Origin: an uncultured Bacilli bacterium
GTDB taxonomy: Bacteria; Bacillota_I; Bacilli_A; RF39; UBA660
Reading direction: 5' to 3'
NCBI GenBank assembly: GCA_947632625.1
Contig: CANRPZ010000004.1
Location: forward strand, 1-34,025
DNA length: 34,025 nt
Part shown: positions 5,392 through 26,122 of the stretch, one piece after another
Layout: each line of letters begins with the position of its first letter
Position numbering within the stretch: position 1 is the first letter of the stretch
Made by a program: the position numbers and the translations under genes
Notes under the pieces: model-generated
Told to the model about the DNA's origin: nothing
Seen by the model: the letters and a program-made list of their open reading frames with translations, nothing else
The model's database searches: none

Positions 5392-7146
5392 TTAATTCAT
5401 TACTCTTTTAAACATACGTTCCAAATCATAGATAGAAAACTTAATAATCGTTGGTCTTCCATGTGGGCAATTATAAGGATTATCACACAAAACAAGTTCG
5501 TTTAATAGCTCCTCTACTGCCTCATTACTAATACGCATATTGGCTTTAATACTCATTTTACAAGCCAAAGTAATCGCAATATGTTCATTAAATTTTACAC
5601 GGTCAAAAGCTCCATGGTTGGATATTAAAATATCTAGTATTTTACGAATAGATTCCTCTTCATACCCGGTCTTTAACCAAGTTGGATGTTCTTTAAACAC
5701 AAAAGTATTCATCCCAAACTCTTCAACTTTAAACCCTAAATCTTCTAAAACTTGAATATTATTTTTAACAATTAAAAATTCACTACTTGATAATTCAACC
5801 GTAATAGGAAATAACAAACCAATACTTGAGGTTTTACTTTCTTTTAAAGCCTTTAAATAACGTTCATAATTTACTCTTTCTTGTGCAGCATGTTGGTCGA
5901 TTAAATAGACTCCTTCTTCATTTTGAGCAATAATATAGGTCCCTAGAGCAACACCAACCGGATATAAAACTAAAGATTTTAATTCTTCATTGATAATTGT
6001 AGGACTTTCTTTTTCTTCTTCATAACTTAAATCTAAAGCAACTTGCGTATTCGTTGAAGACTGATACGCATCTTCACTTTTGGTAGCCTCACTTACAAAA
6101 TGCTCAACATAATGATCTTTAATTTCATTATATTCCGGCTTTTTAACAGCATCTGGTATAAGTAAATTTTTATATAAGGCATCTTTAATCGTTTTTAAAA
6201 TTAATTCATTTAATTCTTGAATTTTAGAAATTTTAATATCTTGTTTAGTAGGATGAATATTGACATCAATTAGCGTTGGATCTGTATTAATTTTTAAAAC
6301 AACAATTGGATATTTTGTATCCGGTTTGTAGGTATAATAAGCATCATTAATGGCTCGATTAATTTCATAATTTTTAATTACGCGATCATTAATCATCGTA
6401 ATAAAGTGATTACGATTGGATTTTAAAATTTCCGGTTTACAAATATACCCATAAAGATCAAAATCATCATTACTTGCTTTTATCTCAATCATTTTAGAAG
6501 AAACATTAAGACCATATATTTCATGAATACATTTATGTAGATTTTTACTCCCAGTCGTTGAAACTAAAACATGCCCATTATTTTTTAAAGTAAAAGAAAT
6601 GGCATCATGAGATAAGGCAAGATGTTCTATTAAAGAAACACAGCCAGCTAGTTCTTGCGCTTCGTTTTTTAAATATTTTAACCTCGCCGGCGTATTATAA
6701 AATAAATCACTTACGGTAATACTTGTTCCTTTTCTACTATCGGCATTTTCTACCTTTACAATTTTGCCACCCTTTATCTCAATCATCGTACCTAATTCTT
6801 TATTACACGTTTTTAAAACAACTTTACTCACACTAGCAATAGAAGGTAAAGCTTCTCCACGGAACCCTAAAGTATCGATAAAAAACAAATCATCGTCGCG
6901 TATTAACTTACTAGTCGCATGTCTTAAAAAAGCCATCTCGGCATCTTTTCGATCCATTCCTTCTCCATCATCGATAACTTGAATACTTTTAAGTCCTCCA
7001 TCTTCTAAAAGAACATCGATTGTATGAGCATGCGCATCGATACTATTTTCACATAACTCTTTTACAACAGAAGAAATCTTTTCCACAACCTCTCCTGCCG
7101 CTATTTTATTAGCAAGTGTCTCACTCATTACTTGTATTTTACTCAT
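5392..7146 (-). CDS. mutL: DNA mismatch repair protein MutL
   Basis: GHKL ATPase motifs KIAAGEVVEKISSVVKELCENSIDA, DDGEGM, TLGFRGEAL; C-terminal endonuclease motif DQHAAQERVNYE. Confidence 0.97.
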   Translation of the reverse strand: MSKIQVMSETLANKIAAGEVVEKISSVVKELCENSIDAHAHTIDVLLEDGGLKSIQVIDDGEGMDRKDAEMAFLRHATSKLIRDDDLFFIDTLGFRGEALPSIASVSKVVLKTCNKELGTMIEIKGGKIVKVENADSRKGTSITVSDLFYNTPARLKYLKNEAQELAGCVSLIEHLALSHDAISFTLKNNGHVLVSTTGSKNLHKCIHEIYGLNVSSKMIEIKASNDDFDLYGYICKPEILKSNRNHFITMINDRVIKNYEINRAINDAYYTYKPDTKYPIVVLKINTDPTLIDVNIHPTKQDIKISKIQELNELILKTIKDALYKNLLIPDAVKKPEYNEIKDHYVEHFVSEATKSEDAYQSSTNTQVALDLSYEEEKESPTIINEELKSLVLYPVGVALGTYIIAQNEEGVYLIDQHAAQERVNYERYLKALKESKTSSIGLLFPITVELSSSEFLIVKNNIQVLEDLGFKVEEFGMNTFVFKEHPTWLKTGYEEESIRKILDILISNHGAFDRVKFNEHIAITLACKMSIKANMRISNEAVEELLNELVLCDNPYNCPHGRPTIIKFSIYDLERMFKRVMN

Positions 7147-7154
7147 TGTCACTA

Positions 7155-17419: not shown

Positions 17420-19340
17420 TTATTCACCCCAAATGGCATAGATAGTAGACTTATCTTCTAAAACATCATAATAATAAGTCTCATTTCCTTTTAGCATATT
17501 ATTTTTAGTATTATCTGTACTAAATCCTTCAAATGTTTTGCTACCTTTAGATAATGCGCTTTCTAAAGTAGTTTTCTCTATACCATAAACAGCATATAAA
17601 TTTAAAGTAAGACAACTACCTGGTACATAATCTTTTAAATCATTTATATAAGTTACTTTATAATTAATATTATCTTTTGGATTTGTTGACCAACCAAGGA
17701 ATTTACTTGAACTTGTAATAGAAATTTCTTTTCCATTACTTTCACCATTTCCATCATAATTTTTAATTGTTAAAGTAGTAAGATTTTTTGTAAATTGATT
17801 TTCTATTAATTTATGAGGCGTGTTATCATCATAATTGAATGATTCGTTAGACATAGTACTACCATTATAATTATGATACACAACCTTTACTAGATGTCCT
17901 TCAGCTTTAACATTAAATGTATGATCATGATCTGGCATAGTAACTGTTGCATCTCCAGTTGTTACAATTTTACCATTAGAATTAATATGATAGCCATTAG
18001 ATTTAGCACTAATTTGTACTTTTACCTCTTCGTTATAGTAATGATCTCCTGCATCATAATCTGCAAGTTTATTCTCTGCTTTACCAATCCAATTTAAACC
18101 ATTACCTTCACCATGAACAGTCAAATGGAATTGATTTCTTACATATTTATACTCTACAGATGTTGTTCCATCCCCTTTTAAAGTAACAGTTTGTTGAGTT
18201 TCTGGAGCAGTAAAACCAACACCTACAGAGGTACCTTCTAACTCTTTTTTAAATCCTGGAGTAACGGTACTACCTTGTCTAGATTTTAAAGTTTCTAATT
18301 CACATAATGGATTACTTTCACATGTAGCATCAGAATCGATTGTTGGATAACCACCTGTTGTATTCATCATGATATGTCTTACAGAATAAGTTTCATCAAA
18401 AATTGCATAGATTGTTGTAGCGTTATCAATATAATAACCATCTTCTGTTTTGGTAAGCATTTTATTACCAGCAGCATCTAAACTAAATCCAACAAAAGTA
18501 AGTTTTGAAGAAGCATTATTAATTTTACTTTCTAAATTAGTTCCTTCTATTCCATAAACGGCATATAAATTTAAATCTGTACAACTATTTGGTACATAAC
18601 CTGTTAAATCATCCTTATAAGATACTTTATAGTTGGCATCACTTTTTGGATTTGTTGACCAACCAAGGAATTTGTTTTCTAATGTTACAGTAGTCTCTCC
18701 ATCTTTACCATCGTAATTTTTGATAGTAATTTGAGAGTCTGCTTTTGTAAATTTATTTTCTATTAATTTATGAGGTGTTTGATCATTATAAGTAAATGTA
18801 TCTTTGGGCATATCTGCACTAGTGCTATTATCATAATTATGATAATACACATTTACTAGATGTCCTTCTGCTTTAACATTAAATGTATAATCATGATCTG
18901 GCATAATAACAGTTGCAGTTCCTGTTGTTACGATTTTACCATTGGAATTAATATGATATCCTTTTGATTTGGCACTAATTTCAATCGTTACCTCTTCTTC
19001 ATAGTAATGCATACCAGCAGCATAATCTTTATTTCCATTCTCACTATTACCAATCCAATTTAATCCATTACCTTCACCATGAACAGTTAAATTAAATTGT
19101 TTTCTTTCGTATTCATATTTTACAACTGTCGTTCCATCCGGTTTAATTGTAGCAGTAGTTTCTGCTGGTTTTGTAAATCCATTACCATAATCTTTTACAG
19201 CTACATTTATTGTACTATCTGCTTTTCCTTGTAAAGTTTCAGGTTCACAAAGTGCATTTGTTCTACATTCTTCATTAGATGTAATATTTGGATAGTGACC
19301 AGTCGTATCCATCTTTATATGCCATACAGTGTAATTTACA
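17420..19340 (-). repeat. Tandem in-frame duplication (two ~320-aa units) in the 1163-aa protein
   Basis: LTVHGEGNGLNWIG...GYHINSNGKIVTTG...MPDHD.TFNVKAEGHLV...FLGWSTNPK...NLYAVYGIE twice; shared DNA markers are offset by 966-969 nt. Confidence 0.9.
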
Positions 19341-20911
19341 TCTACAGCTTCCCATTTTGCATATAAAGTTATATCTTTATGTGGCATGGTTTCATCTTCA
19401 AAATTCCATTCGTTTGTTCCTTCAGATTCTTTAAACCATCCTAAAAATTTATAACCAATACGAGTTGGATCTGTTGGTTTTTCGATAGTATCTAAATAAG
19501 AAACAGATACACTCTTTTCACCATTAAATACTGCATCTACAGAACCTAATTCATAAGTAACAGTATACGTATTTACTTTACTATTTGCTTGTAAAGTTGC
19601 GTCACTTGCACCCATCTTAAATGTTAATTCATTTTCTGTATTCTCTTCTAAAGAACCAGTATCTACAGTCCAATTAGCAAATGAATAACCTTCCATTACA
19701 TCTGCTTTTACATGAATTTCTTCTTCAAAATAATACTTTCCTTCTCCAGTTACAGAAGAAATTCCTTCATCTTTTGAAATCTTAAGTTCATATTTATTTC
19801 TTTCATAATAATATTTTACAACAGTTGTTCCATCACCATTTATTACAGCACGAACTTGTTCTGGAGATTTAAAACCAACATAATCTTTTACACTTGGTGT
19901 AATCTCTGTATCTGTAGTTCCTTTATAAGTATCACGAGCTATTAATGTATAATTTTCACCATCAATGTCCATTAAATAATGTTCTACAGTATAATTCGTA
20001 TCTGTATTAGCTTTTGTTGAAATTTCTATAGTTTCATCATGATTTTTCATAGTATATACATCATCTTTTAAAGATTCACTATATTTACTAAAAGAATAAC
20101 CAGGTTTTAAATTATAAGAAATTTTAACTTTTTCTCCATAATAATAAGTACCTGCACCAACTATATTTTCTATACCATAGTCTCCACTTAAGTCTAAAGT
20201 ATATTTTTCTCTTTCATAGTGGTATTGTACAACTGTTTTACCATCTTTTTTAATAGTTGTTGTTTTTACATCAGGTGATGTAAATCCAACATATTCTTTT
20301 GTTTTTGGTGAAACTTGACTACCAATTAAACCAGTAAACGTTTCACTTTCTTCTAAAGTATAATTTTTACCATCTAAATTCATTAAGTAATGTTCTACTT
20401 TATAAGAAGCTTTAGTAATTTCTTCCCATTTTGCAACTATTTTTAAACTACTTGTTACTTTAGAATTAAAATCATACTTTTCATTGCCAACATACCATCC
20501 TAAAAAAGTATATCCTTTTTTAGTTGGTGTTTCAATTTTTTCTACAGTATCATTTGGTTTTACTTGTTTTACAACATATTCTTTTCCATTATCTAAATCA
20601 AATTCTACTGTAAAAGTACCTTCAACCCATCTTGCCTCCAATTTAACATTTTTGGTAATAGGTGTACTCATATCAAATTTTTCATTATCTACATACCATC
20701 CAGCAAATATATAACCGTCTTTTTTAGGTTCTACAATATTTTCTAATGTATCACCTTTTTGAATCGTTGCATTATAATAAGATTGATTATCTACTGTAAA
20801 TTCTACTTTAAATCTTCGATTACAAGAAACTAAAAACAATAGAATAATAATGATTATAATGCCACCAATAATATAATAAATATTTCTTTTTTTATTCTCT
20901 TCTTTTTTCAT
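17420..20911 (-). CDS. Large membrane-anchored surface protein with InlB B-type (Listeria-Bacteroides) and MucBP-like repeats
   Basis: N-terminal TM ending LFLVSC-NRR; FAGWYVDNEKFD and FLGWYVGNEKYDF modules; YKVEHYLMNLDGKNYTL / YTVEHYLMDIDGENYTL MucBP-like repeats; C-terminal tandem duplication. Confidence 0.8.
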   Translation of the reverse strand: MKKEENKKRNIYYIIGGIIIIIILLFLVSCNRRFKVEFTVDNQSYYNATIQKGDTLENIVEPKKDGYIFAGWYVDNEKFDMSTPITKNVKLEARWVEGTFTVEFDLDNGKEYVVKQVKPNDTVEKIETPTKKGYTFLGWYVGNEKYDFNSKVTSSLKIVAKWEEITKASYKVEHYLMNLDGKNYTLEESETFTGLIGSQVSPKTKEYVGFTSPDVKTTTIKKDGKTVVQYHYEREKYTLDLSGDYGIENIVGAGTYYYGEKVKISYNLKPGYSFSKYSESLKDDVYTMKNHDETIEISTKANTDTNYTVEHYLMDIDGENYTLIARDTYKGTTDTEITPSVKDYVGFKSPEQVRAVINGDGTTVVKYYYERNKYELKISKDEGISSVTGEGKYYFEEEIHVKADVMEGYSFANWTVDTGSLEENTENELTFKMGASDATLQANSKVNTYTVTYELGSVDAVFNGEKSVSVSYLDTIEKPTDPTRIGYKFLGWFKESEGTNEWNFEDETMPHKDITLYAKWEAVDVNYTVWHIKMDTTGHYPNITSNEECRTNALCEPETLQGKADSTINVAVKDYGNGFTKPAETTATIKPDGTTVVKYEYERKQFNLTVHGEGNGLNWIGNSENGNKDYAAGMHYYEEEVTIEISAKSKGYHINSNGKIVTTGTATVIMPDHDYTFNVKAEGHLVNVYYHNYDNSTSADMPKDTFTYNDQTPHKLIENKFTKADSQITIKNYDGKDGETTVTLENKFLGWSTNPKSDANYKVSYKDDLTGYVPNSCTDLNLYAVYGIEGTNLESKINNASSKLTFVGFSLDAAGNKMLTKTEDGYYIDNATTIYAIFDETYSVRHIMMNTTGGYPTIDSDATCESNPLCELETLKSRQGSTVTPGFKKELEGTSVGVGFTAPETQQTVTLKGDGTTSVEYKYVRNQFHLTVHGEGNGLNWIGKAENKLADYDAGDHYYNEEVKVQISAKSNGYHINSNGKIVTTGDATVTMPDHDHTFNVKAEGHLVKVVYHNYNGSTMSNESFNYDDNTPHKLIENQFTKNLTTLTIKNYDGNGESNGKEISITSSSKFLGWSTNPKDNINYKVTYINDLKDYVPGSCLTLNLYAVYGIEKTTLESALSKGSKTFEGFSTDNTKNNMLKGNETYYYDVLEDKSTIYAIWGE

Positions 20912-20983: not shown

Positions 20984-20987
20984 GCAT

Positions 20988-21019
20988 AAAAAGGGTGTCA
21001 CAAATTGAACACCCTTTTT
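20988..21019 (-). terminator. Rho-independent terminator after the 976-aa repeat gene
   Basis: AAAAAGGGTGT-(10 nt)-ACACCCTTTTT, 11-bp perfect stem with T-run. Confidence 0.85.
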
Positions 21020-21035
21020 ATTATTTTAATTTAAT

Positions 21036-23966
21036 TTAATCTGCATTAAATGGAGTTTGACCTAATTTAATAACAATCTCATCCATTACATCATCTTTAA
21101 ATGCTACATCATCTGCAGGATTTAAACGTACAGTAACTGTTACATCTTTATACTTTTCCCAAAAATCTTCAAAAGTCATAGACATATAATCATCATCACC
21201 AGCAATTGCTTGCGCAACTTTTGGCAAAAATCTCATCATTTGGAATGCTAACGTCATAGTATTAGTGCTAGATGTAACTACCGCACCTTCATATCCTACT
21301 AATTCAATAGAAGCTAATTTTTTATTTTTAAATAATTCTGCCAAAGCATCATTGATACCAGTACCTTGCATACTAGCCAATTCTTGTAATGTTTTGCCTT
21401 CAAAAGATTTTTTATTATAATTTACTGTTACAACATTTTTGTCAGAAGATATTTGAAACCACTTATTTCTACTATTATTAATTTTATTCTCAACAGTAGT
21501 TTGATTTGCAATTTCTGTATTACTTACTAATTGTAGATATTTAGCTGTTAATGTAACATCTTTTGTTACAGGAGCATTAAAATCAAATTCTGTTTTTCCA
21601 TTAGTAGTTGAATCATACCAATAAGCAAATTTGTAACCATCTTTGTCATCAGCCTTTGGAATAGATTCCGTACTTATAGTTTTTCCACTATCAACAGTTA
21701 CAACTGCATTTTTAGCTTCAGTAAAAGTTAATTTACGTGTTGCAACATCAAAAGTAATTGTATATTCTTCTTCGCGAGATGAACCAAATGTAGCACTACT
21801 TTTTAGATTTAAAATTGCTTTAACGCTCTTACCTTTAAGAATTTCATTTGTTAGAGGTCCTTCTCCAAATAATTGTGCTATTTTTTCTGCATTATCTGAC
21901 ATCCATTGTCCAATAGTTTCTACAGTTGTATTAGCATCATAAGTAAAAGTTAATCCTTCATAACTAAATTCTACAGATTTAACCTCTGGACTTTTAAATA
22001 GTTCACCCATAGCAACTAAAACGCCAGAATTCATACCCATAGCAATTTCAGTTGTAGCATCTTGAGCAGTAACTGTAAGTGTTTTTCCTTCTAATTTTAC
22101 ACTATATAAGTTGTCAGAAATTACAGAGGTTCCAGAATCATCTGGAATAAATCCACCTTTTAATAATTCTTCTCCTGAAACTACTTTAGGAGTTCCAGTA
22201 AAATTGAAAGTATATTTGTCTTTATTAGTAGTTTCTTTTTCAGCATAATATTTTAAATTAACTGTTGCTGTGAATGATTTACCAATTAAATCAGCAGTAA
22301 TTCCATCAGCATCTTCACCTAATACTTTTAATAAATTATTACTTACCCATCCTGCAATATCCATTTCAGTAGTTTCTCTAGTATAAGTAAATGGTTCTAC
22401 TCCTGCTATATCAGTTGCAAAATCTATAGATTCAATATCAGCATTTGTATCTAATAATTCTTTTAATGTAGCTAATACTCCAGAACCCATTCCTTTAATA
22501 ATTGTAGCATCTAAATCAACAACGGTAACTGTAACAGTTCCATCATTATAAGTTGCTGTAAACATGTCATTATTAATAGAACCACTTGTTTTAGTTGCGA
22601 CATCTTCAACTAATTTATCTACATTAACTTTTTTAGGTTCACCTGCAAATGTTACTATATATTCTTCAGCATCATCTGCTTCTTTTTCAGCAAAACTTTT
22701 TAAATTTACTTTTGCTTTAAAAGATTTACCAATTAAATCGTAAGTAATTCCTGTAGCATTATCACCTAATGCTGTTAACAAGTTAGATGCTAACCATGCA
22801 TTAATTTCTGCATCACCAGTTTCACTTGTAAGTGTAAATGGTTCTACTCCAGCAGTATCAGATGTAAAGGTAATAGATCTTACATTTTCATTAGCAAGTA
22901 ATTCTTTTAATGTATCTATAACACCTGAACCCATACCAAGTTCAATTTGTTTTTCTGGTTGTTTAACAGTTACACTTATAGTTTCGTTATTATCATAAGA
23001 AACCTCAAATAAATCACCATTTAATTTACTATTTTTTGAAGCAGTACTAACTAAACCATTAACATCAACTTGAGATCTTGTACCATCAAATGTAATAGTA
23101 TAAGTTACTGACTTGCCATCATTCTTTTGAGCAAAATAATTTTCTGTATCACTTGAACCAAGATTTAATGTTGCAGTAAATGATTTACCAATTAAATCTG
23201 CAGTAATACCATCAGCGTTTTCACCTAATACTTTTAATAAATTGTTACTTACCCATGCTGCAATATCAGTATCAGTAGTTTCTCTAGTAAAGGTAAATGG
23301 TTCTACTCCTGCTATATCAGTTGCAAAATCTATAGATGTTACTGATGAATTGTCTTCTAAAAATTTAGTTAAAACATCTATAACTCCAGATTTCATTCCT
23401 AAAGCAATATTTTCTTTTAAATTTTGAACTGTAGCTGTAACAGAACCATCAGCTAAACTATTTACATTAAATGTAAATAAATCAGGTTTATTATAAGATG
23501 TAAATGCAGTATTTAATAAAGTATCCGTATCAATTTTTACATCTTCTTTTAAATATTGATAATCAATATATTTAACTTGAATACCACTTTTTAAATCTTC
23601 TTCTAGAGTATTATCTCCATATAAAGATTTACCAATTGTCCAACTATCAATTTCTCCACTATTATTATATTGAGCATCGATAGTATAAATTGTCATTTCT
23701 TTAAAAATACCATCGGTATTAATTTTACCATTTTGATCTTTTGCTTGAATGCTTCTTGCAGCAAGCATAACATCTTGAACCGTTGTTTTATAACCAGTTG
23801 TAAAAGCATATTCACCAACTAAATAGAAACCTTCTGCATTTTTATTTACAGCTAATACATCATTTCCTAAAGTATTTAAATCTTTAATTTCTTTAGCAGA
23901 AACAGCATTTAGTGAAAGAACAAAACCAATTAATCCAATAGCTAATAATTTTATGTTCTTTTTCAT
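21036..23966 (-). CDS. Secreted repeat protein with ~150-aa GM.SGV repeats and one InlB B-type repeat
   Basis: Signal peptide MKKNIKLLAIGLIGFVLSLNAVSAKE; recurring GM.SGV...DFATDIAGVEPFTFTRET...WVSNNLLKVLGE.ADGITADLIGKSFTATLNL; FAYWYDSTTNGKTEFDFNAPVTKDVTLTAKYL; no LPXTG or C-terminal anchor seen. Confidence 0.78.
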   Translation of the reverse strand: MKKNIKLLAIGLIGFVLSLNAVSAKEIKDLNTLGNDVLAVNKNAEGFYLVGEYAFTTGYKTTVQDVMLAARSIQAKDQNGKINTDGIFKEMTIYTIDAQYNNSGEIDSWTIGKSLYGDNTLEEDLKSGIQVKYIDYQYLKEDVKIDTDTLLNTAFTSYNKPDLFTFNVNSLADGSVTATVQNLKENIALGMKSGVIDVLTKFLEDNSSVTSIDFATDIAGVEPFTFTRETTDTDIAAWVSNNLLKVLGENADGITADLIGKSFTATLNLGSSDTENYFAQKNDGKSVTYTITFDGTRSQVDVNGLVSTASKNSKLNGDLFEVSYDNNETISVTVKQPEKQIELGMGSGVIDTLKELLANENVRSITFTSDTAGVEPFTLTSETGDAEINAWLASNLLTALGDNATGITYDLIGKSFKAKVNLKSFAEKEADDAEEYIVTFAGEPKKVNVDKLVEDVATKTSGSINNDMFTATYNDGTVTVTVVDLDATIIKGMGSGVLATLKELLDTNADIESIDFATDIAGVEPFTYTRETTEMDIAGWVSNNLLKVLGEDADGITADLIGKSFTATVNLKYYAEKETTNKDKYTFNFTGTPKVVSGEELLKGGFIPDDSGTSVISDNLYSVKLEGKTLTVTAQDATTEIAMGMNSGVLVAMGELFKSPEVKSVEFSYEGLTFTYDANTTVETIGQWMSDNAEKIAQLFGEGPLTNEILKGKSVKAILNLKSSATFGSSREEEYTITFDVATRKLTFTEAKNAVVTVDSGKTISTESIPKADDKDGYKFAYWYDSTTNGKTEFDFNAPVTKDVTLTAKYLQLVSNTEIANQTTVENKINNSRNKWFQISSDKNVVTVNYNKKSFEGKTLQELASMQGTGINDALAELFKNKKLASIELVGYEGAVVTSSTNTMTLAFQMMRFLPKVAQAIAGDDDYMSMTFEDFWEKYKDVTVTVRLNPADDVAFKDDVMDEIVIKLGQTPFNAD
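21790..23420 (-). repeat. Four GM.SGV repeats (period ~455 nt), plus a degenerate fifth near 21380
   Basis: GMKSGVIDVLTKFL, GMGSGVIDTLKELL, GMGSGVLATLKELL, GMNSGVLVAMGELF; degenerate QGTGINDALAELF. Confidence 0.85.
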
Positions 23967-23983
23967 AATTTTACATCCTTTCT

Positions 23984-25324
23984 TTATTTATAAGATACCG
24001 AAACATTATTAATTTCTGTACCATTCTTTAATATAATTGTAGCACTTTTTACATTCTCATCAACATTTGTAGCTTTTACAGTTGCATCTTTAAATGGTTT
24101 AGTTTGGCCATTATATTTAATTACACTATAATCACTCCAAGCACTACCATTTCTTGTTACTAGAATTGTATATTCCAAAGAATCCCCAAATTCTTCTGGT
24201 ATTGCAGTAAATACAATCGCATAAGTAGAACTTACTTTAACAGTAATAGTATCTTCATAGTTACCATCTTCTGTTGTTACAGTAATAACTACCTCACCAT
24301 CATTAACACCATGAACTGTACCATTTTGATCAACTGTTGCAATACTTGGATCACTACTTTTCCAAGTAACCTTTTTATTTGTTGCTTTACTTGGACTTAC
24401 TACAGCTTTAAGTTTAAGATTTGATCCAACTTTTACCTCATTATCTCCTTGTATTTTAACACCAGTTACTGCAACATTAGTTTCAGTTGGTTCTTCCTCT
24501 TCTTCCTCTTCAATTGTAATTGTAATGCTACCATATTTTTTACTACCATCTTTAGCAGTGGCTGTAATAGTTACTTTTCCTGGTTTTAGAGCTTTTACTT
24601 TTCCATTTTCATCAACAGTTGCAATTTTTGGATTGCTACTTTTCCATGTAACATTTTTATTTGTAGCATCTGTTGGTTTAATGGTTACCGTTAATTTTTG
24701 ACTTTCTCCAACCATCATTTTTTTATCCCCACTAACAACAACACTAGTAACAAAACCATTTTTGTCATTAGTAACTGTAATTGTGCAACTTGCTTTATAA
24801 CGTCCATCTTTCGTTTGTACCGTAATTGTTACCTCACCAACTTTTAATGCTTTTACTTTTCCGTTTTCATCAACACTTGCAATTTTTGGATCACTACTAC
24901 TCCATACTAATTCTTCTTTAGTAGCTTCTCCATTTAATAAAGCACTTAAAGTAAGAGTATCATTTACAAGTAATGTTTCTTCTGTTGTATTTAAAGTTAA
25001 TCCTTCTTTTACACCATCGGCCCATCTTGCTTCTAGTGTTATATTTCCAGTAATTGGTGTAGTAAAATCGAATAATTCATCATTTAAATACCATCCAGCA
25101 AAAACATATCCTTCTCTTGTTGGATCACTTGGTTTTTCGATTGTTCCATTTTTTTCAATTTCTACGGATGAAACAGCACTACCACCATTCGTATCAAAAT
25201 CGACAGTATACTTTCTATTACATCCTCTTAATAAGAAAAAGAAAATAACGATTAGAACAACAGCTCCAATAATGATAAACGTTCTAAGTTGCTCTTTTTT
25301 TTCATCAGTTTTTTTCTTATTCAT
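23984..25324 (-). CDS. Membrane-anchored surface protein: InlB B-type repeat plus three bacterial Ig-like (Big_2) domains
   Basis: TM then RGCNRKYTVDFDTNGG...REGYVFAGWYLNDELFDFTTPITGNITLEARW; WSSSDPKIASVDENGKVKALKVGEVTITVQTKDG and two further copies. Confidence 0.85.
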   Translation of the reverse strand: MNKKKTDEKKEQLRTFIIIGAVVLIVIFFFLLRGCNRKYTVDFDTNGGSAVSSVEIEKNGTIEKPSDPTREGYVFAGWYLNDELFDFTTPITGNITLEARWADGVKEGLTLNTTEETLLVNDTLTLSALLNGEATKEELVWSSSDPKIASVDENGKVKALKVGEVTITVQTKDGRYKASCTITVTNDKNGFVTSVVVSGDKKMMVGESQKLTVTIKPTDATNKNVTWKSSNPKIATVDENGKVKALKPGKVTITATAKDGSKKYGSITITIEEEEEEEPTETNVAVTGVKIQGDNEVKVGSNLKLKAVVSPSKATNKKVTWKSSDPSIATVDQNGTVHGVNDGEVVITVTTEDGNYEDTITVKVSSTYAIVFTAIPEEFGDSLEYTILVTRNGSAWSDYSVIKYNGQTKPFKDATVKATNVDENVKSATIILKNGTEINNVSVSYK

Positions 25325-25357
25325 GTATAAATGTCCTTTCTTTTAAAATACTTTTGG

Positions 25358-25376
25358 TATCCTAATTATTAGGATA
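25358..25376. promoter_or_regulatory. Perfect 19-nt palindrome in the 5' UTR of the surface-protein operon
   Basis: TATCCTAAT-T-ATTAGGATA, 9-nt arms. Confidence 0.55.
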
Positions 25377-25471
25377 AACTAACTTATTTCTACTACTCCT
25401 TCACCTCAATTTCCCCAAACAAATTTTCGTATCGAAAAGATTAGATAAAACCTTTCTTAATACTTGGTTTC

Positions 25472-25501
25472 ATTATAACCCCCCCCCCGAAGCTTTGTCA
25501 A
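25472..25501 (-). promoter_or_regulatory. Candidate phase-variable sigma-A promoter (G10 tract in spacer)
   Basis: Minus strand TTGACA-AAGCTTC-GGGGGGGGGG-T-TATAAT: consensus -35 (25501-25496) and -10 (25477-25472), 18-nt spacer with G10 (C10 at 25479-25488 on +). Confidence 0.85.
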
Positions 25502-25582
25502 TCAATTTTTGGGGATTTAAGAAACAATTAAAAAAGTCTTTTATCTCTATCAAATGTATGTTACTAAAAAATATTTAATGCC

Positions 25583-25613
25583 AAAAAAAAAGAATTAAAC
25601 GGTCATTAATTCT
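25583..25613 (-). terminator. Rho-independent terminator overlapping the frr stop codon
   Basis: AGAATTAA-TGACCGT-TTAATTCT followed by a T-run (T9 overlapping the last stem base). Confidence 0.75.
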
Positions 25614-26122
25614 TCTTCTTTGCTTTTTAGTTTTTCATCTACAATTTTATTATATTTATTAATTGCTTCTTGGACGCTTTCTAATCTTCGTTTTTCTTCA
25701 TCTAAAGGATATTCTTCTTTTTTAATCTGATTGTTTTCTTCTTGACGAATATTTCTTAAAGCCACTTTAGCTTCTTCTGCTACCTCTTTTGCTTGACGAA
25801 CATAATCTCTTCTTCTATCCTCTGTAAGTTCTGGAACCGTTAAAAGAATAATTTCCCCATTATTCGTTGGTGTAATACCAATATTTGCTTCATTAATAGC
25901 TCTTTCTATATCTTTTAAAACATTACGATCAAAAGGTTTGATCATTAATTGTCTTGCTTCAGGAACGGTAATATTGGCAAGACTTTGTATAGGAGTTGCA
26001 ACTCCATAATAAGGAACCATGATTCCATTTAGCATAGCCGGATTTGCTCGACCTGCTCTAATATTTAAAAGCTTGTTTTCTAATGATTGAATGGCTTTTT
26101 CCATTTTTTCTTCAATATTCAT
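25595..26122 (-). CDS. frr: Ribosome recycling factor
   Basis: LLNIRAGRANPAMLNGIMVPYYGVATPIQSLANITVPEARQLMIKPFDRNVLKDIERAI. Confidence 0.97.
   Translation of the reverse strand: MNIEEKMEKAIQSLENKLLNIRAGRANPAMLNGIMVPYYGVATPIQSLANITVPEARQLMIKPFDRNVLKDIERAINEANIGITPTNNGEIILLTVPELTEDRRRDYVRQAKEVAEEAKVALRNIRQEENNQIKKEEYPLDEEKRRLESVQEAINKYNKIVDEKLKSKEEELMTV

Follow-up and report, generated by a model that had tools for sequence, protein, structure and literature searches.

A Poly-G Spacer Promoter Upstream of a Two-Gene Surface Operon in an Uncultured RF39 Bacterium: A Probable Site of Slippage-Mediated Phase Variation

Introduction

An uninterrupted run of ten G residues separates two perfect promoter hexamers in the genome of an uncultured Bacilli bacterium (GTDB lineage Bacteria; Bacillota_I; Bacilli_A; RF39; UBA660; GenBank assembly GCA_947632625.1), which raises the question of whether this promoter is a fixed element or a switch set by the gain and loss of G residues. 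The window considered here is the whole 34,025-nucleotide stretch of contig CANRPZ010000004.1 (positions 1 to 34,025 of the forward strand). The reading that we favor, with a probability of roughly 0.8 on sequence-based evidence, is that the window promoter serves a two-gene surface operon, is recognized by a housekeeping sigma factor and is phase-variable under the control of slippage.

Under this reading, DNA polymerase would slip on the G-run and add or lose one G, and each G would change the distance between the hexamers by one base. The altered spacing would then turn transcription of the genes for an anchored Ig-like protein and a secreted repeat protein up or down, and the outcome would be a cell population with differing surface coats. 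As judged from sequence, phase variation by slippage in a spacer tract appears well supported for the class of promoters described below and likely for the window locus itself, where we infer a tract length that differs among cells of the population, use of the promoter and an effect of length on expression.

Promoter Anatomy and Operon Context

The promoter lies on the minus strand of contig 4 of this genome at 25472-25501 (TTGACAAAGCTTCGGGGGGGGGGTTATAAT). Read from 25501 to 25472, it is TTGACA-AAGCTTC-GGGGGGGGGG-T-TATAAT, with both hexamers perfect and a spacer of 7 + 10 + 1 = 18 nt. The features of the locus are as follows.

25595..26122, minus strand: frr, upstream of the tract promoter
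25582..25622, minus strand: low-GC intrinsic terminator overlapping the frr end, stem-loop and U-run (-16.6 kcal/mol, z -4.8)
25496..25501, minus strand: -35 hexamer TTGACA (sequence match)
25489..25495, minus strand: fixed part of the spacer, AAGCTTC (sequence)
25479..25488, minus strand: G10 tract, the proposed slippage site (sequence)
25478, minus strand: single T between the G10 tract and the -10
25472..25477, minus strand: -10 hexamer TATAAT (sequence)
25325..25471, minus strand: leader of 147 nt from the -10 to the ATG, with a ribosome site, AAAGGA, at about 25334-25339
23984..25324, minus strand: gene 1, 446 aa, with an N-terminal membrane anchor, one Flg_new (List_Bact_rpt) and three Big_2 domains
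21036..23966, minus strand: gene 2, 976 aa, with a signal peptide, internal repeats and an Flg_new domain
20986..21021, minus strand: terminator 3' of gene 2, with a 14-pair stem and T-rich tail
17420..20911, minus strand: gene 3, 1163 aa, with a membrane anchor and InlB-like Flg_new repeats

The G10 tract is the only run of at least seven G residues in the window. Since a first-order Markov model based on base and dinucleotide content expects only about 0.002 runs of at least ten G residues on the minus strand of the window, the tract is not a product of chance, and the probability that both hexamers would flank such a run at these distances is approximately 1.6e-6. Transcription is predicted to start near 25465. 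No other good promoter was found in the interval, where the second-best match on the minus strand scores 9/12, and the leader showed no notable RNA structure. The homopolymer lies wholly between the -35 and the -10 and exceeds the length of about 8 expected of porA/opc-type switches; it is intergenic, 5' of the ATG, and is thus not a coding-tract (translational) switch.

Because the terminator at 20986..21021 follows gene 2, genes 1 and 2, which are 17 nt apart, most likely make up the unit driven by the tract promoter, while gene 3, located beyond this terminator, is probably a separate unit. The products of the operon are predicted from sequence to be surface-exposed, as indicated by the anchor with Big_2 and Flg_new domains in gene 1 and by the signal peptide of gene 2. 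On the other side, the frr terminator, missed by a GC-based scan, insulates the tract promoter. Several statements of the first-pass annotation are borne out by these data: the exact sequence agrees with the perfect hexamers, G10 tract and 18-nt spacer that it had described, the run is as improbable by chance as it had supposed, the gap it had given as about 148 nt before the first gene measures 147 nt from -10 to ATG with the second gene 17 nt further on, and the terminator that it had placed at frr is a recognizable stem-loop with a U-run.

Recurrence of the Layout among Relatives

The layout of TTGACA, at least seven G residues and TATAAT was found at 38 sites in 15 of the 22 genomes of the genus, and a reversed-pattern control gave 0. 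At the family level it is present in 61/386 genomes and 27/119 genera (controls 0), the 386 genomes having been drawn from the order and all belonging to one family; in a sample made at phylum level, whose rows all fall in the same family or class, it occurs in 15 of 396 genomes. Among the matches listed, the named genomes comprise many gut Clostridia, Bacilli, Saccharibacteria, Ancillula, Streptobacillus and others, in a scan run without a control.

Tracts of at least eight G residues are found in all 22 genus genomes, with 2 to 83 per genome. When tracts were sampled by region (96 tracts of at least eight G residues, seven genomes), nine lay between two perfect hexamers and three between hexamers with one mismatch; one further tract (C20 of this genome) has two hexamer mismatches at a plausible position. 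Most of the remainder are in coding sequence, which on inspection also seems to be the case for a few tracts with two or three mismatches.

Orthologous genes bear on selection for the layout. A tract promoter precedes the ABC-ATPase orthologs of four species, where the -35, G-run and -10 align within intergenic DNA that is otherwise not alignable, and further ortholog groups also retain the tract. For the window promoter, the sister species offer no ortholog for comparison, since the operon is not conserved behind frr in those compared, which carry other genes there. Relatives of the 976-aa protein occur in four sister genomes and on contig C11 of this genome, without a G-tract promoter immediately 5' of any of them.

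A surface operon is the correct description of the window locus and is not the rule for tract-promoter genes. By a simple hydropathy rule, a clear hydrophobic N-terminus is present in 11/29 first genes of the genus, and a few more are lipoprotein-like or pilin-like; cytoplasmic targets include ABC ATPases, a DUF3419 protein, an HD protein and a sigma-70 factor.

Tract Length, Spacing and Promoter Strength

The slippage switch is the most likely explanation because relatives hold dozens of copies of the layout with differing G-run lengths. Eighteen sets of same-genome promoters with identical spacer flanks were built, by collapsing the tract, from the family-scan sites listed, which are a part of all sites; 12 of these 18 differ in tract length, and their spacers extend from 16 to 21 nt. 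The cleanest pair, in genome G226, shares an identical 45 nt upstream, an identical spacer flank and an identical 40 nt downstream and differs as G8 versus G9, each copy preceding a signal-peptide protein of a group of secreted-protein paralogs. Four tandem copies in genome G208 carry G10, G9, G9 and G8, and the six copies in genome G218 all carry G9. The G226 and G208 copies are paralogs in draft assemblies rather than alleles of one locus, and homopolymer lengths in draft assemblies may be off by one. Among viral contigs, nine pattern matches contained no near-duplicates, and a search of these contigs for species-specific strings of the locus found none.

Both mutS and mutL (the latter at 5392-7152) are encoded in the genome, so slippage should be restrained, not absent.

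The tract promoters of the genus most often have a spacing of 19 nt (12/38), whereas its ordinary TTGACA/TATAAT promoters peak at 17 nt, with only 1/102 at 19. Spacers with a tract span a wider range and are longer than those of ordinary promoters (Mann-Whitney P 0.01; at least 19 versus below 19 nt, Fisher P 0.001), in a comparison that counts some chance matches among the ordinary promoters and whose sites are non-independent. Either the assembled tract states are mostly off-optimum or the G-run moves the optimum to longer spacers. Relative to average DNA, poly-G DNA has a shorter length and a lower twist per base. In the 1995 porA study of van der Ende, longer poly-G spacers were reportedly the stronger state. 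Given the two options for the optimum, the assembled 18-nt state cannot be called a reduced phase. The proposal of the first-pass annotation has therefore been kept in part: its core, that a spacer tract makes the promoter of a surface operon phase-variable, finds support in the comparative evidence from relatives, whereas its view of G9 with a 17-nt spacer as the optimum, and of 18 nt as reduced, is not.

Coding G-Tracts in the Same Genome

Approximately 15 further tracts of this genome occur in a gene family whose products start with MKKRN(R/K)ILPTETSFGGG (MKKRNRILPTETSFGGG). These loci are outside the window (L186-L189, L191-L199, L203, L204), and the tract comes right after codon 14. Complete copies carry G9 (three), G10 (eight) or G11 (one) behind nearly identical 42-nt leaders, which indicates that G-tract length changes faster than its flanks in this genome. 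G9 is in frame, and G10 and G11 are out of frame; the G10 copies terminate after 20-21 codons, and in one of them, whose downstream sequence is complete, about 585 codons are open in the other frame. An Rfam search of the repeated coding-tract loci returned no RNA, and the approximately 585-aa protein (L198:3047-4800) had no Pfam match; by impression, its C-terminus resembles a formylglycine-enzyme/C-type-lectin-like fold. Starts of the LPT..GGG type with G-tracts are also seen in sister species. Elsewhere in this genome (L205, on C29), an identical G11 tract with its flanks occurs twice, 1515 nt apart, and is probably coding.

A broader proposal, which we regard as tentative and give somewhat less than even odds, is that G-tracts form a genome-wide system of two layers, in which copied switch promoters would set the level and coding tracts the frame, such that combinatorial surface diversity would arise from a 1-Mb genome, and in which the poly-G spacer would shift the optimum to about 18-19 nt.

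Alternative Explanations

The G-run could instead be a fixed structural element whose A-like geometry, or a factor binding to G residues, sets promoter strength, with length acting as no switch. Such an element would be in keeping with the TC found immediately 5' of the run at 27 of the 38 genus sites, with the distinct conserved lead-ins that other lineages place before their own G-runs and with the uniform G9 of the six G218 copies. However, two-thirds of the promoter sets with identical flanks (12/18) differ in tract length, and in the same genomes coding G-tracts set the reading frame, a role that carries no structural promoter meaning; this explanation is accordingly considered unlikely. 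An origin in sequencing or assembly, through two-color dark cycles called as G or a chimera joined via a shared 20-nt string, is far less probable still. Several G-tracts of this genome do lie at contig ends, and AGCTTC-G10-TTAT also occurs in some of its coding tracts, but the window tract lies away from contig ends and has unique flanks, many independent assemblies, some of them from isolates, show the layout with both hexamers perfect, and the contig ends are explained by the near-identical 5' ends of the gene family. A chimera through AGCTTC-G10-TTAT was accordingly judged unlikely.

Phase variation might also proceed by another route, for example an invertible segment, with the G-run being incidental. 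Invertible promoters are frequent in gut bacteria, but a search of 25330-25600 found no inverted repeats of the kind that an inverton would have, and we assign this route the lowest probability of all. Slippage in the spacer tract thus remains the preferred reading.

Relation to Known Systems and Implications

Promoter homopolymers are known from a small-genome relative in the wider Bacilli: the vlp promoters of Mycoplasma hyorhinis, which serve surface lipoproteins, have a poly-A tract near the -10. The resemblance is one of description rather than sequence, with poly-A there and poly-G here.

The closest precedent is Neisseria meningitidis, in which porA, opc and fetA, all encoding surface proteins, have unstable poly-G or poly-C tracts between -35 and -10 that are thought to alter sigma-factor binding (PMC2791445); the porA-type logic invoked in the first-pass annotation accords with this position of the tract. 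In contrast to Neisseria, the present promoters belong to distant Bacilli, have perfect hexamers on both sides and occupy many loci per genome, among them entire families of paralogs whose switch promoters are nearly identical; an effect of length on expression is a prediction here. In another gut commensal, Bifidobacterium breve UCC2003, slippage at G-tracts of pilus genes is modulated in the host, and further G-tracts in promoter spacers are mentioned without details (PMC9187656); the characterized tracts in that organism, from another phylum, are coding and act ON/OFF by frame, whereas the window tract is in a promoter spacer. Similarly, the unstable, frame-dependent G9 tract of Amuc_1413 in the gut commensal Akkermansia muciniphila (PMC13055324) is coding and resembles the coding tracts of this genome, not its promoter. 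A homopolymer survey of 99 genomes emphasized poly-A/T in coding genes (PMC2831843).

A literature search found no paper joining RF39 with phase variation, within a limited literature in which absence is no proof of novelty, and a paper on these orders (PMC10868615) leaves phase variation unmentioned. The mechanism is already known, as the porA/opc type, while its use in this lineage, an unexpected one, and on this large scale seems not to have been described. Most of what is known of spacer-tract promoters comes from a few pathogens; in this reduced-genome, uncultured gut family they recur, serving surface proteins as well as some regulators and transporters. If the reading is true, gene content would not suffice to read strain-level surface variation, and the lengths of G-tracts in metagenome reads already at hand would offer a direct and testable readout of active gut surface genes. 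In addition, the many natural copies of differing length constitute a data set on spacer length and poly-G geometry versus promoter strength.

Additional Observations

Among the genomes compared, the closest named relatives by frr (72-76% identity) are a Bacillota MAG (SIG197) and rabbit-gut Bacilli MAGs. The stretch behind frr (25324-25595 in the window; L298, L301, L302, L308 and L313 elsewhere) holds cargo that differs per species, and in several species of the genus switch-type genes with G-tracts are found there, in a hotspot-like manner. In genome G015, the gene behind a G-tract promoter encodes sigma-70 regions 1.2 to 4 (L058:1587-3029), so that a sigma factor may itself be switched. 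The gene for the methyltransferase-like DUF3419 protein has G10 in one and G9 in the other of two sister species (L040, L041), both with a spacer of 17. In family genome G259, the runs of tract promoters are unusually long (G14 to G16), and in two copies the run is broken by A or T, possibly representing locked states.
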